Shown: one piece after another, positions 23,736 through 34,387 of the stretch
How positions within the stretch are numbered: the stretch's first letter is position 1
Layout of the letters: each line of letters opens with the position of its first letter
Assembly: GCA_029225085.1 (NCBI GenBank)
Contig: JAQXVU010000043.1
Span: 1-36,011 of the forward strand
Direction: 5' to 3'
Length of the DNA stretch: 36,011 nt
Source: Eggerthellales bacterium
GTDB lineage: Bacteria > Actinomycetota > Coriobacteriia > Coriobacteriales > Eggerthellaceae
Program-made: the position numbers and the translations under genes
Notes under the pieces: model-generated
The model's database searches: none
What the model was told of the DNA's origin: nothing
The model's input: the letters and a program-made list of their open reading frames with translations, nothing else

Positions 23736-24695
23736 CTAACGCCTAAGCCCATCGAACAACTGCTTATGAAGTCTCATTCTCCTAGCAGGAAGATCTCTGA
23801 CTTCGCTCCGATTTCTCAAGCCGAGACAACATCGAACGCTCCTCATGGCGGTATCAAAGCTCATGCTGTATCTAAGTTGGTTTGTCGTCAACGTGCATAC
23901 TGTGTATCCAAGTTCGGTAAGCGCATTAACCCTAATTGCATCATACGAACGCCTATTAAATCCATGGTACGAATCACTGTCATATTCGAGAATTACCCTC
24001 TTCTCTTCCCATAGGAAATCACAACGATAAGAATCCTTGCCCAACCTTGCTCGCAATCGTTCGGGAATCTCTATCTCACCATTTAGCGAAAAACCCTTCA
24101 TGCCATAGCCACCTCTGACAGTAGAGAAGGACATGGCTATAGCTATATCGGTTTCGTAAGGAGAGCCAGAATTGTCCATGATGTAATGCACAGCGTCTCT
24201 ATTGCCCGCCAACCCTCTTTTACGACCAACCTCTCTAGAGAGCTTCTCCACCTTCTGCATATTGCATAAAGGCGCTAAACCGTATTCAACAGTTCCCCCA
24301 ACTTTAAAAGAGTACGTTCCACAGAATTCAAAACCGAGCCTAACCGAGGAAACCAACTCCGAATCCTTCATCAATTGAAGCAAGCATAACTCCGGAGAGG
24401 CGACATACACGCCTGCAGAGACCCGCCTAAAAGACCTATCGGGAACAGTACGGCAAACATGCGCTACGGTATCACCCCTCTTTACCCTGTCAGCACCCCT
24501 GGCAACACAAATGGAAAGAGCTTCATCCTCAGGCAAGTGCAAAAGGAGCCGAGCATACTCAACCTCCTGCAGCAATGGCCTCATACCCGACAAAGGCGTC
24601 ACGGAGGTCGATGCAGGCTCACATAACGCAATGTCACCTGTCCGGCACATACGCCAAAACCTAAGAGCTGATTCATGTCCTATGAAAATAGCCAT
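23736..24695 (-). CDS. Orphan protein with PD-(D/E)xK (DUF559/Vsr-like) nuclease C-terminus
   Basis: A 319-aa protein in a relatively AT-rich region. The C-terminal part has a nuclease-like core: Glu181 in SPYETD, Asp226 in YRCDFLW, and Glu237/Asp239 in VILEYDSDSYHG, followed by a helix with Arg and Asn (YDAIRVNALTELGYTV). This is the pattern of DUF559/very-short-patch-repair-type endonucleases. The N-terminal half, starting MAIFIGHESALRFWR, resembles putative regulatory or DNA-binding parts of abortive-infection (AbiEi-like) proteins, but only loosely. No methylase, toxin or antitoxin gene is adjacent. The ribosome-binding site is weak. It could be a defence nuclease or a mobile remnant. Confidence 0.65.
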   Translation of the reverse strand: MAIFIGHESALRFWRMCRTGDIALCEPASTSVTPLSGMRPLLQEVEYARLLLHLPEDEALSICVARGADRVKRGDTVAHVCRTVPDRSFRRVSAGVYVASPELCLLQLMKDSELVSSVRLGFEFCGTYSFKVGGTVEYGLAPLCNMQKVEKLSREVGRKRGLAGNRDAVHYIMDNSGSPYETDIAIAMSFSTVRGGYGMKGFSLNGEIEIPERLRARLGKDSYRCDFLWEEKRVILEYDSDSYHGFNRRSYDAIRVNALTELGYTVCTLTTNQLRYSMSFDTAMRSVRCCLGLRNRSEVRDLPARRMRLHKQLFDGLRR

Positions 24696-24719
24696 GAGCC
24701 CAGCTTAAGGCGCAGTTCA

Positions 24720-24884
24720 TACGAAAACCTCTCTCGAACTTCTGTCGAACCTCCCCCAAAGTTCAGTCAAACTCCACCGAAGCATCCTTCAAATCCCCCG
24801 CCAATCTTCGCCCGAACACCCTTTGAAGTTAGTCCGATTCTCAGCCACTTTTCACCAATCTCGTTCGAAGCGTGGATTCAAACG
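24720..24884. repeat. Degenerate 11-bp tandem array upstream of the nuclease gene
   Basis: From 24720 the plus strand can be cut into consecutive 11-mers: TACGAAAACCT, CTCTCGAACTT, CTGTCGAACCT, CCCCCAAAGTT, CAGTCAAACTC, CACCGAAGCAT, CCTTCAAATCC and onward, with an approximate consensus CYNTCGAACYT. The pattern is clear to about 24818 and weaker to about 24884. It starts 25 nt upstream of the nuclease start codon. I see no convincing gene in 24696-25057. Confidence 0.6.
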
Positions 24885-25057
24885 CAAGCAGCATTCTCAA
24901 TCACACCCAGCACGAGGGGGTATTCGAACAGGTATTGGTATAAAAAACGGGGCTCTAGCCTCCTCGGAATCAAACGCCCTCATCCCCAGCCATCCAACTA
25001 GCATCCCCAGGCAGAAAACAAGAGCCAGAACAATGCCCCTGGCCCTCACATGCCTTG

Positions 25058-25161
25058 CTTCTCCCAAATCCGTGCGCATCTTGCTTCTCCCAAATCCGTG
25101 CGCATCTCGCCTCTCCCAAATCCGTGCGCATCTCACTTCCCCCCTAACCCATGCGCATGTA
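25058..25161. repeat. Four tandem 26-bp repeats
   Basis: Units begin at 25058, 25084, 25110 and 25136. The first three are almost identical, each carrying CTCCCAAATCCGTGCGCATC; the fourth is diverged but keeps TGCGCAT. There are no spacers. The array ends right at the terminator of the second dctP gene. Confidence 0.9.
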
Positions 25162-25200
25162 GAAAGGAAGAACGGCCAGAGCGTTTGCTCTGGCCGTTCT
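25160..25200 (-). terminator. Terminator of the second dctP gene
   Basis: AGAACGGCCAGAGC (25169-25182) pairs perfectly with GCTCTGGCCGTTCT (25187-25200) around GTTT. On the minus strand the stem leads into TTCCTTTC. It lies 64 nt past the dctP stop. Confidence 0.85.
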
Positions 25201-25264
25201 ATCGAAAGCTTACGGTTCGAACTCCACGTTCGGAAGTCGTCCCCTCTTATCTCTCGGCTACATC

Positions 25265-26353
25265 CTAGGCAGCGTCGAGAGCGGCGATCAGCTTGTCGGA
25301 CAGACCGTTGGTCTGCTTAGAGATGTCAGCGTAAACCTTCTGTACGCCCTCGTTGTTCTTGAACTCGGTGAAGAAGTCCTCGTCATACTCAATAACTTCC
25401 ATGCCGGCGTCGGTCATAACCTTCTCGTTGTCAGCGTCGAAGCTAGCAAGCTGAGGAGCGATCTCTGCTGCGGACTCGTTTACAGCCTGCTGCAGTGCCT
25501 CCTGGTATGCAGGATCCAGGGAGTCCCAAGCATCCTTGTTAATGCATACGAAGTTAGCGTAGATGATGTGATGGGTGCGGCACAGGTACTTCTGCACTTC
25601 CTGGAAGGATGCGCCCACGGAGGTGTCGGTTGCATTCTCCTGGCCGTCAACGGTGCCGTTCTGGAGGGCGAAGTACACCTCGCTGAACGCCAGAGGAGTG
25701 GGCTCAGCGCCTACTGCCTTCCAGAAGGCCATGTGGTTGGCGTTCTCCATGGTGCGGATCTGGAAGCCCTTGAAATCGGCGAGAGTGCGGAGCTCCTTGT
25801 TAGAGGTGGTCTCACGGAAGGTAGCTGCCTGCAGCCAACCGAGGTTGTGCAGACCGTTCTCCTCGAAGGATGCCTGCAGGCCCTGGCTGAACTCGTTGTC
25901 GCCGTTCAGAACGGAGTCGATCTGCTCAGCGGACTGAGTTGCGAAAACCATAGGAAGGTCGAATGCGGCAAGACCAGGAACGAATGGAACGGCAGGAGCT
26001 GCCTGAGTCAGAACCATCTGAATGTCATTAGCCTGCTCCTGGCGGAGGATGTCAGCGTCACCGCCGAGCTCGCCAATGCCGTGATACTCGATGGTCAGCT
26101 TGCCACCGGTGATGGCAGAAACTTTCTCAGTCATCAGCTCGCCCCACTGGTTGCCAGCGGAACCCTTAGAGGTGCTATCGGACAGGATGAGGGTTACAGG
26201 GTCGAGGTCCTTATAGGCGCCCTCGTCGGAAGACGAGCCTGAACCCTGGTCGCCACCGCAACCAGCCAATGCGACCATTGCAGCCAAAGCTGCTGCAGCC
26301 AAAGCCATAAGCAGGCCGCGCCTGGTCTTGCGGGAATTCTCGTAGCCTTTCAT
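25265..26353 (-). CDS. dctP: TRAP transporter solute-binding lipoprotein (second copy)
   Basis: A 362-aa extracellular receptor of a TRAP transporter, DctP family. The signal peptide ends in the lipobox LAGC before GGDQGS. The ligand-binding signature is GFQIRTMENANHMAFWKAVG, whose Arg normally holds the ligand carboxylate, followed by SEVYFALQNGTVDGQENA. The protein is a close paralogue of the dctP at 26841-27929, with the same length and long identical blocks. It differs in the N-lobe (IQMVLTQAAPAVPFVPGL here against IQIWVGQPAPAVSFIPEL) and near the pocket. AAAGGAG precedes the ATG. It has its own likely promoter and terminator, so it can be expressed apart from the permease genes. Confidence 0.95.
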   Translation of the reverse strand: MKGYENSRKTRRGLLMALAAAALAAMVALAGCGGDQGSGSSSDEGAYKDLDPVTLILSDSTSKGSAGNQWGELMTEKVSAITGGKLTIEYHGIGELGGDADILRQEQANDIQMVLTQAAPAVPFVPGLAAFDLPMVFATQSAEQIDSVLNGDNEFSQGLQASFEENGLHNLGWLQAATFRETTSNKELRTLADFKGFQIRTMENANHMAFWKAVGAEPTPLAFSEVYFALQNGTVDGQENATDTSVGASFQEVQKYLCRTHHIIYANFVCINKDAWDSLDPAYQEALQQAVNESAAEIAPQLASFDADNEKVMTDAGMEVIEYDEDFFTEFKNNEGVQKVYADISKQTNGLSDKLIAALDAA

Positions 26354-26840: not shown

Positions 26841-27929
26841 TTAAGCAGCGTCGATAGCGGCGAGCATCTTGTCGGACAGACCGTTGGTCTGCTTGGAGAT
26901 GTCAGAGTAAACCTTCTGTACGCCCTCGTTGTTCTTGAACTCGGTGAAGAAGTCCTCGTCATAGGTGATCTCGGTCATGCCAGCGTCGGTCATAACCTTG
27001 GCGTTGTCAACGTCCATCTGAGCCAGCTGAGGAGCGATCTCAGCTGCGGCATCGGAGACGGCCTGCTGCAGTGCCTCCTGGTAAGCTGGGTCGAGTGCGT
27101 CCCAACCCTCCTTGGAGATGCTCATCATGTTAGCGTAAAGGATGTGATGGGTGCGGCACAGATACTTCTGTACTTCCTGCAGGGATGCGCCAACGCAAGT
27201 GTCGGTAGCGTTCTCCTGGCCGTCAACGGTGCCGTTCTGCAGTGCGAAGTAAACCTCGGACCAAGCCAGTGGGGTAGGCTCAGCGCCTACTGCCTTCCAG
27301 AAGGCCATGTGGTTGGCGTTCTCCATGGTGCGGATCTGGAAGCCCTTGTAGTCAGCGAGGGTTGCGAGCTCCTTGTTAGAGGTGGTCTCACGATAGGTAG
27401 CTGCCTGCAGCCAACCGAGTACGTGGAAACCGTTCTCCTCAGCAGCGGCCTGGAGGCCCTGGCTGAACTCGTTGTCGCCGTTCAGAACGGAGTCGATCTG
27501 CTCAGCGGACTGAGTTGCGAATGCCATAGGCAGGTCCATGCATGCCAGCTCAGGAATGAAGGAAACTGCAGGGGCTGGCTGACCAACCCAGATCTGAATG
27601 TCGTTTGCCTGCTCCTGGCGGAGGCCGTCGACGTCACCGCCGAGCTCGCCAAGACCATGGTAATCGATAGTCAGCTTGCCACCGGTGATCTCGGAAGCCT
27701 TCTCGGCTACCAGCTGACCCCACTGGTTGCATGCGGAACCCTCAGAGGAGGAATCGCCAGCGATCAGGGTTACAGGATCAAGATCAGCGTAGGCATCATC
27801 GCTGCTGCTGGAAGAGCTGCTGTTGTCGCCACCGCAGCCTGCCAGTGCGACCATTGCGGCTACCATGGCGGCTACTAAGCCCATGACCAGGAAGCGCTTG
27901 GTCTTCTGAGATTTCTCGTAGGCCTTCAT
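26841..27929 (-). CDS. dctP: TRAP transporter solute-binding lipoprotein (operon copy)
   Basis: This 362-aa DctP-family receptor is encoded 54 nt after dctM. The lipobox is LAGC before GGDNSS, followed by a Ser-rich tether. It shares with the second copy the ligand signature GFQIRTMENANHMAFWKAVG and SEVYFALQNGTVDGQENA. It delivers a carboxylate-bearing solute to the DctQM membrane complex, driven by an ion gradient. It carries extra cysteines (SACNQW, ELACMD, DTCVGA) where the paralogue has Gly, Ala and Ser. AAAGGAG precedes the ATG, in a leader nearly identical to that of the second copy. The ligand is unknown. Confidence 0.95.
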   Translation of the reverse strand: MKAYEKSQKTKRFLVMGLVAAMVAAMVALAGCGGDNSSSSSSSDDAYADLDPVTLIAGDSSSEGSACNQWGQLVAEKASEITGGKLTIDYHGLGELGGDVDGLRQEQANDIQIWVGQPAPAVSFIPELACMDLPMAFATQSAEQIDSVLNGDNEFSQGLQAAAEENGFHVLGWLQAATYRETTSNKELATLADYKGFQIRTMENANHMAFWKAVGAEPTPLAWSEVYFALQNGTVDGQENATDTCVGASLQEVQKYLCRTHHILYANMMSISKEGWDALDPAYQEALQQAVSDAAAEIAPQLAQMDVDNAKVMTDAGMTEITYDEDFFTEFKNNEGVQKVYSDISKQTNGLSDKMLAAIDAA

Positions 27930-31388: not shown

Positions 31389-32195
31389 CTATTCTTCCAA
31401 ACCGCAAATACGGAGAACGCAATCGGCCACCTCAGAGACCGACGAAGCCAACGCGGTAGCATCCTGAAGCTCCTCGTAGGACCCGTAGCCGTACAGACAT
31501 CCCACCGATGGCAGGTCGTGAGCGCGGGCAAGGTTCAGATCCTTATAGCGGTCCCCCACCGCCATCCAGCTTCCGGGCTGCTCCTTGGCGATGGTCTTGA
31601 AGATCTCCTCCTTAGGGATATCCCCGAAGGCCTCAGCGCTGTAGTAGGCGCTGAACCATTGGTCTAAGCCGAAGACCTCCCTGGCCACATCCTTGTAGGC
31701 GATGCGGCAATTGGAAAGGAACACACAGTTCAGGCCCGCATCATGCACGCGGGTGAGCATCTCGGGAACCCCGGGGAACAGCCGGGCCGAGCCGTCGGTC
31801 ATGAACCTATCCATAGCGGCGCCCACAATACGAGCCGCCTGGTCAGTCACGGACTTGGGAAGCTCCGGTGCGAAAGAGGACCACATCTCGTCGGCGGTAA
31901 GGCCCAGATAGCAGGAGATATCCTGCAGCTGAAAGGTCCGAGGCTGCGCATGACCCTCGGCCACCAGCCATTCGTAGGCCTCTAGAAACGCCTTCATATA
32001 TATGTAGGCGCTGTCATGCAGCGTGCCGTCGAAATCGAAGATGACGGTGCGTATGGTCGAAGAGTTCGCAGGCTGCGAGCTGAGGTTGGCAGCCTGAGCC
32101 CAGTTCGCAGGCTGCGAGCTGGGGTTGGCAGCCTGAGCTCCGGCGCAATCGCACTGAGGCTCAGTAGGTATGGTTTTGGAATTCGTTTCAGTCAT
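31389..32195 (-). CDS. HAD-superfamily phosphatase with repeated N-terminal tail
   Basis: A 268-aa hydrolase of the phosphoglycolate phosphatase-like HAD group. The catalytic motif is TVIFDFDGTLHDS near residues 49-61 (nucleophile Asp in DFDGT). Motif II is probably CVFLSNCR, and motif IV lies in WMAVGDRYKDLNLA. A helical cap lies between motifs I and II. The first 47 residues are an Ala/Gln/Ser/Asn-rich tail with two copies of a 13-residue unit (AQAANPSSQPANW and AQAANLSSQPANS), unlike the family norm. The ribosome-binding site is weak. It follows ribH on the same strand after 96 nt and might supply the phosphatase step of riboflavin synthesis (inference). Confidence 0.88.
   Translation of the reverse strand: MTETNSKTIPTEPQCDCAGAQAANPSSQPANWAQAANLSSQPANSSTIRTVIFDFDGTLHDSAYIYMKAFLEAYEWLVAEGHAQPRTFQLQDISCYLGLTADEMWSSFAPELPKSVTDQAARIVGAAMDRFMTDGSARLFPGVPEMLTRVHDAGLNCVFLSNCRIAYKDVAREVFGLDQWFSAYYSAEAFGDIPKEEIFKTIAKEQPGSWMAVGDRYKDLNLARAHDLPSVGCLYGYGSYEELQDATALASSVSEVADCVLRICGLEE
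32064..32141. repeat. 39-bp in-frame tandem repeat in the HAD gene
   Basis: Two copies start at 32064 and 32103, sharing GTTCGCAGGCTGCGAGCTG and GGTTGGCAGCCTGAGC. They encode the 13-residue duplication in the N-terminal tail. Confidence 0.9.
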
Positions 32196-32759: not shown

Positions 32760-32782
32760 AGTTGCTTCCTTTCTCTTCATTT

Positions 32783-32847
32783 GCACGTTTATTTGCACGT
32801 TTTGCACGTTGAATTTCGCGTTCCGCGCGTTTATTTGCGCGTTTTGC
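32783..32847. repeat. Direct repeats in the ribBA-ribH spacer
   Basis: A 23-nt element occurs at 32783-32805 and, with two A/G changes, at 32825-32847. It is built from shorter TTTGCACGT-like units. It lies in the leader region directly upstream of the ribH ribosome-binding site. Confidence 0.7.
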
Positions 32848-34187: not shown

Positions 34188-34284
34188 ATCGTTCTCCTTC
34201 TCGTAAGGTTTGCTCGCGTATAAGTGGAAGATGGGCAAGCCCATCGGGTTGTTCGGGATGCCTCGGCGTGCGCTCACGCGGGAC

Positions 34285-34387
34285 GCGCCTTGGGCGGCTA
34301 GTAGGTCGCGCCTCGCTCAGGGCTGGCGAGATCGCGCCTTGGGTGGCTGATGGGTCGCGCCTTGCTCGGGACTGGCGAGATCGCGCC
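34285..34387. repeat. 49-bp tandem repeats in the ribE-ribBA spacer
   Basis: Two 49-bp units start at 34285 and 34334, with 42 of 49 positions identical by my count, and a third starts at 34383 but ends at the ribE stop. Each unit contains GCGCCTTGGG and CTGGCGAGATC. All differences are transitions. Confidence 0.8.

Follow-up and report, generated by a model that had tools for sequence, protein, structure and literature searches.

The window analysed here is a stretch of 36,011 nucleotides from an Eggerthellales genome. On its minus strand, at 23736..24695, lies a gene for a nuclease of 319 amino acids with a PD-(D/E)XK-like C-terminal DUF559 domain (PF04480, residues 221-275). Immediately upstream of this gene, at 24718..24860 and in the same orientation, is an array of 13 degenerate direct repeats with a period of 11 bp. 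The array is intergenic, being located between the nuclease start codon at 24695 and a terminator-like hairpin on the minus strand (25169..25200) that follows the upstream dctP gene and separates it from both the array and the nuclease. Neighbouring paralogous genes at 25265-26353 and 26841-27929 encode two TRAP solute-binding proteins (DctP) and stand beside genes for DctM and DctQ. A 26-bp tandem repeat (CTTGCTTCTCCCAAATCCGTGCGCAT) is present in three copies, 96% identical, at 25054-25133, in the gap that separates the dctP terminator from the array. Three more short tandem repeats (39, 21 and 49 bp), at 32063-32138, 32780-32847 and 34284-34387, do not belong to the 11-bp class.

Read on the sense strand of the nuclease, the repeat units follow a consensus of about NTTNGRSGRAR (GTTCGACAGAA, GTTCGAGAGAG, GTTTGACTGAA and so forth). 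When scored with a matrix built from its own units, the array resolves into 13 head-to-tail units in a single unbroken register that runs from 24860 down to 24718 on the minus strand, which corresponds to positions -165 to -23 relative to the nuclease ATG. Beyond either end, the adjoining unit scores below zero with this matrix. An earlier, sequence-only reading had reported a period of 11 bp across 24720-24884; its limits reached about two units too far since 24861-24884 is outside the array, while the array itself proved to be real. Over 24720-24884, the identity at lag 11 is 0.448 against a mean of 0.269 for shuffled controls (z 4.9), the identity at lag 22 is 0.427 (z 4.2), and none of 2000 dinucleotide shuffles reached the maximum of the array over lags 5-29. 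The array is also the only place in the whole 36-kb window where the lag-11 z exceeds 3.9. Tandem Repeats Finder (TRF) recovers just 2.5 copies because the units are degenerate, and the same degeneracy led to the rejection of an exact tandem repeat or a CRISPR. A coding repeat was rejected as the source of the period as well, in agreement with the earlier reading, since the array is wholly intergenic. A promoter scan returned no sigma-70 promoter above its threshold near the array; a possible -10 hexamer, TATGAA (24716..24721, minus strand), is weak, was read by eye and overlaps the array end. No Rfam match above chance was obtained for 24500-25300, the one narK match (E 0.56) being far under its gathering score, and RNA folding of the array region is weakly better than that of shuffles (z -1.7). 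The intergenic location of the array, its place directly upstream of a gene and its pitch of about one helical turn support the proposal, already made in the earlier reading, that it serves as an operator. The CGAA-centred pattern described in that reading applies to the window array and does not extend to other genera, where the unit is spelled otherwise.

Single-sequence structure prediction of the nuclease yielded a pLDDT of 30, and an alignment-based AlphaFold model (pLDDT 89.8) was used in its place. In this model the C-terminal domain is PD-(D/E)XK-like, and a helix-turn-helix is not apparent from the secondary structure. Four residues, E181, D226, E237 and H244, are invariant in the family alignment. 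The catalytic fold of the C-terminal domain (PF04480) resembles that of DUF559/Vsr-fold nucleases such as I-Bth0305I (3r3p; Foldseek TMt 0.61; profile E 5.6e-4). Unlike I-Bth0305I, the window nuclease possesses an additional N-terminal part of about 170 residues with no Pfam match, and its family is represented by several chromosomal paralogues per genome. Homologues were found in 40 of 60 relatives, with up to 14 copies per genome, and make up a large chromosomal family of the Coriobacteriia whose named genera include Gordonibacter, Paraeggerthella, Raoultibacter, Adlercreutzia, Slackia and Olsenella. A phage or plasmid origin was considered and rejected, as there was no match to a phage record and only one weak match to a plasmid record, a 900-kb Collinsella record. 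Kinship of the N-terminal part to AbiEi, suspected from the motif SHxSALEYW, was likewise set aside, as no match emerged when profiles were compared with a single AbiEi protein.

The upstream regions of the nuclease homologues bear out the expectation that arrays of this kind would recur in the family. In a first set, the lag-11 z exceeds 4 in 15 of 68 distinct regions and in none of 152 control intergenic upstreams. An enlarged set gave 32 of 146, with period 11 as the best period in 49 regions and the runner-up period best in 18. The units of these arrays are spelled in several ways, comprising TCCAGCGNGGA, a CCTTGC type, CTCAGGNAAAG and the type seen in the window. Three upstreams in the family (L083, L018 and L016) carry strong periods of other lengths, namely 15, 12 and 7 bp (z 11.9, 8.1 and 10.1), and a CCWGGT box that overlaps the presumed -35 is seen in nuclease upstreams.

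Arrays are not confined to nuclease genes. Scanning 279 kb of the window's own genome at lag 11 without any matrix, and leaving out a block of N, identified four intergenic arrays: that of the window, one in the pgsA/recA gap, one in the rnhB/yraN-comM-dprA gap and one unrelated longer repeat. The last of these (L237:2902, contig C7) has a longer period with a partial 11-bp signal, is missed by the window matrix and lies 94 bp upstream of a gene with a 5'-nucleotidase-like start. A matrix trained solely on the window units was then scanned across both strands of 640 kb of the same genome, sampled in stretches that over-represent the surroundings of recA, dprA and rpsF since these regions were chosen on purpose. 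Its ranking places the window first (61.3 bits), followed by recA (35.7), yraN-comM-dprA (33.8) and a site 216 bp upstream of rpsF in rpsF-ssb (20.7), after which scores are at chance level. Retraining with the recA and dprA arrays added a weak match upstream of comFC. Because column-permuted matrices reached 33.8 in 9 of 200 cases and 20.7 in 94 of 200, the arrays at recA and dprA are firm, those at rpsF and comFC are suggestive only, and the rpsF match in this genome is by itself not significant. Relative to the gene, the units have the same orientation at the nuclease, recA and dprA. The genome encodes recA, dprA and comEC, with comM and dprA following yraN; no array was found at its comEA region. 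With recA and yraN-comM-dprA both recovered by the window-only matrix, a cis element is common to functionally linked genes within one genome, and its sharing between the nuclease and competence genes is a direct observation. Four related genomes (G003, G023, G007 and G035) each hold several array loci.

These results bear on the earlier suggestion that the nuclease system has the array as its operator or target, in which case the DUF559 nuclease or its N-terminal domain would bind the array upstream of its own gene and regulate itself. Such autoregulation would suit an array directly upstream of the nuclease and the presence of arrays before many homologues. However, the recA and dprA operon arrays of the same genome are spelled like the nuclease array, most nuclease homologues are without one, arrays also occur in genomes where no nuclease homologue was detected (G026, G030, G033, G049 and G054), and the predicted fold has no obvious helix-turn-helix. 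Autoregulation by the nuclease is consequently very improbable. The array is very probably an operator, and likely one that serves a competence-type regulon including the nuclease and not the nuclease itself; the nuclease is probably a member of the regulon as opposed to the reader of its arrays.

In related genera, arrays precede recA, yraN-comM-dprA, rpsF-ssb, comEA, comFC, the Flp-pilus gene cpaB and toxin-antitoxin genes. When 700 bp upstream were scanned in each relative and an array was called at z>4 with a best period of 11, arrays were present in 11 of 28 genomes for yraN, 6 of 28 for rpsF and 9 of 27 for recA, with half or more of the relatives' recA, yraN and rpsF upstreams falling below the threshold. 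Collectively, 26 of 83 of these upstreams bear an array compared with 9 of 555 for other genes (Fisher p 6e-18); several of those nine are true arrays, and the best periods of 9, 12 and 15 bp among the controls reflect codon structure. The pgsA/recA gap holds an array in four genera, and in three an array flanks thiI on the side of comEA. At cpaB/rcpC, arrays occur in three genera other than that of G003, and at comFC in two, with a third using the same intergenic site.

The closed 3.38-Mb genome of one relative, G003, permits a fuller inventory. It contains about 20 separate arrays of a TCCAGC-type pattern, against none for a reversed control pattern. Just three precede nuclease homologues; the remainder are intergenic and mostly sit ahead of an opposite-strand gene, in its upstream region. 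The ribosomal protein S6 gene is the usual first gene of rpsF-ssb, and it adjoins an array in G003, as do recA, comEA (SLBB and HHH), yraN (UPF0102, beside rnhB) and the comFC locus. Three Gp49-type toxins, RelB, a CopG-type antitoxin, AbiEi_4 and a small DUF559 protein are also encoded next to arrays, and some arrays adjoin genes unconnected to competence. Pfam assignments among array-linked genes comprise ComEA, UPF0102, RcpC/CpaB, ComF-like and S6. The array at the nuclease is oriented opposite to that at recA in G003, G023, G031 and G007, and in the same direction in the window genome and G035. A conserved CCCCAGGTCA box terminates many of the TCCAGC-type arrays of G003 and G007 (L186-L202 and L205), on the side facing away from the left gene. 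Neither this box nor the CCWGGT box was seen in the window genome.

In view of its genomic distribution, the array likely acts as operator for a genome-wide natural-competence regulon, covering DNA uptake and recombination, in the Eggerthellaceae and related families. The competence role is suggested by gene content, namely comEA, comFC, dprA, recA, ssb and pilus genes. In the ComK, SigX/ComX and Sxy-CRP regulons, recA, ssb, dprA, comEA, comFC and pilus genes are placed under one common cis element. The gene content proposed here is alike in that respect, whereas the cis element is an array of 11-bp direct repeats. A different assignment would make the arrays operators of an SOS-like DNA damage response or of a general stress response. 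Since recA and rpsF-ssb belong to both kinds of regulon, recA, ssb and nucleases would fit either, and toxin-antitoxin genes are often linked to stress. Yet comEA, comFC, yraN-comM-dprA and the Flp-pilus gene cpaB are uptake genes and not classical SOS genes, and none of the loci read had lexA, dinB or uvr genes beside an array. In addition, the array repeats are direct and head-to-tail while the LexA box is palindromic. A damage or stress operator is accordingly unlikely, though it is the least improbable of the alternatives to a competence operator.

How the units are spelled provides a separate line of evidence. The similarity between units of recA/dprA arrays and those of nuclease arrays is 0.719 within a genome (18 pairs) and 0.447 between genomes (255 pairs), with a scrambled baseline of 0.396; no permutation of 10,000 reached the within-genome value. 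The nearest match to the window array is the recA array of its own genome. Spelling therefore drifts between genera while being common to the recA/dprA and nuclease arrays of a genome, a covariation that is observed directly. Because units are alike within genomes and unlike between them, one trans-acting protein per genome probably reads all of the arrays, with a specificity that would drift between genera. Common ancestry of the arrays within a genome offers a partial alternative explanation for this likeness. Another possibility is that the array is a dispersed selfish or structural repeat, either REP/RAYT-like or a nucleoid-organising site, which occupies intergenic regions and is carried along by mobile genes, nucleases and toxins among them. 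The some 20 arrays of G003, several of them beside toxin-antitoxin and DUF559 genes, and the conserved CCCCAGGTCA motif at the end of many would be in keeping with such an element. Against it, the sites upstream of recA, comEA, comFC and cpaB stay in place across genera while their units drift, and the arrays are strongly biased towards the upstream regions of competence genes. A selfish or structural repeat is thus improbable, if marginally less so than autoregulation by the nuclease.

As to the reader of the arrays, what is already known suggests OmpR-type winged helices of the SARP class. The operators of SARP regulators (the afs box of AfsR and the sites of PimR, ActII-ORF4 and DnrI) are direct repeats at an 11-bp pitch, as are the arrays, and their readers join an OmpR-type DNA-binding domain to a BTAD domain. 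On two 11-bp repeats, the protomers of AfsR are bound next to each other (PMC10936776), and PimR reads heptamers with 4-bp spacers (PMC5930380). As expected of a SARP operator, the window array presents direct repeats of 11-bp pitch near the promoter region. Known SARP sites differ in that they have two or three repeats and belong mostly to antibiotic clusters, whereas 6-13 degenerate units are associated with DNA-uptake genes here. BTAD, the defining SARP domain, was found in 54 of 60 relatives, nearly always in one copy and including the window's genome. Its gene is located upstream of secA-prfB and encodes a protein of about 870 amino acids with BTAD at the C-terminus in most genomes; the open frame in the window's genome is 366 amino acids. 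Searches of G051 and G043 (family f9) recovered no BTAD protein, and G051 nonetheless has clear arrays. By analogy, the single-copy SARP/BTAD regulator encoded beside secA-prfB is the leading candidate for the reader, a guess that has a reasonable chance of being right and a larger one of being wrong. In G003, G031 and G007, the BTAD gene has an array 3-4 kb upstream, next to toxin-antitoxin genes in each case, and in G021 it has one directly upstream; given those neighbouring genes, the arrays of the first three favour the SARP reading weakly. In G021, 187 bp separate the upstream array (L300, z 6.3) from the predicted start of its single BTAD gene, which could possibly be autoregulated.

A mechanism can be outlined on this basis. 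One DNA-binding protein, with one specificity per genome, would read the 11-bp units head-to-tail. Since 11 bp is about one helical turn, its monomers would all face the same side of the DNA, and binding to 6-13 weak units could be cooperative. The reader would then recruit RNA polymerase to recA, yraN-comM-dprA, rpsF-ssb, comEA, comFC and cpaB; DUF559 nuclease and toxin-antitoxin genes would be further targets in some genomes. Activation is favored over repression because arrays sit upstream of genes and not within them. In the window, the 319-residue nuclease would be placed under competence control. More tentatively, gut Coriobacteriia might possess a new type of competence switch consisting of long operator arrays at helical pitch and a single-copy SARP-type regulator, with the unit coevolving with the regulator. 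DUF559 nucleases and toxin-antitoxin genes would then be part of the DNA-uptake programme, and incoming DNA would meet a dedicated nuclease.

The control of competence in Actinomycetota is an open question. In the actinobacterial model Micrococcus luteus, the upstream signals and regulators of competence are yet to be identified according to a 2026 paper (PMC12849477). Transformation of M. luteus requires Flp/Tad pili (PMC4322843), which fits the arrays at cpaB. For Eggerthella and related bacteria, arrays like these were not described in the papers searched, and no paper on Eggerthella competence was found in the literature searched. As a cis element found at recA, dprA, ssb, comEA, comFC and pilus genes, the array could offer a direct handle: it may be used as bait for the regulator, as a reporter for screening growth conditions and, through its 11-bp period, as a means of reading the regulon across the Eggerthellaceae. 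Gut bacteria that carry arrays and are genetically hard to manipulate may be naturally transformable; shuttle plasmids are available for Eggerthella lenta (PMC9734109). Through the array, DNA uptake would also be connected to an extensive family of nucleases that are uncharacterised.

Toxin-antitoxin genes (Gp49-type toxins, RelB, CopG-type, AbiEi_4 and HI1420-type) adjoin the arrays at L186, L187, L193, L194, L195, L196 and L215, and from this placement they may be members of the regulon. As an AbiEi_4 gene adjoins one G003 array, the AbiE type IV toxin-antitoxin systems provide a point of comparison. AbiEi antitoxins autoregulate via repeats located upstream of their own operon, and these are described as inverted (PMC7319586). 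In contrast, the window repeats are direct, and the window gene has no AbiEi match. At another G003 locus (L198), an array lies between a small DUF559 gene and a parA-like gene, beside two parS-like TGTTTCACGTGAAACA sites.
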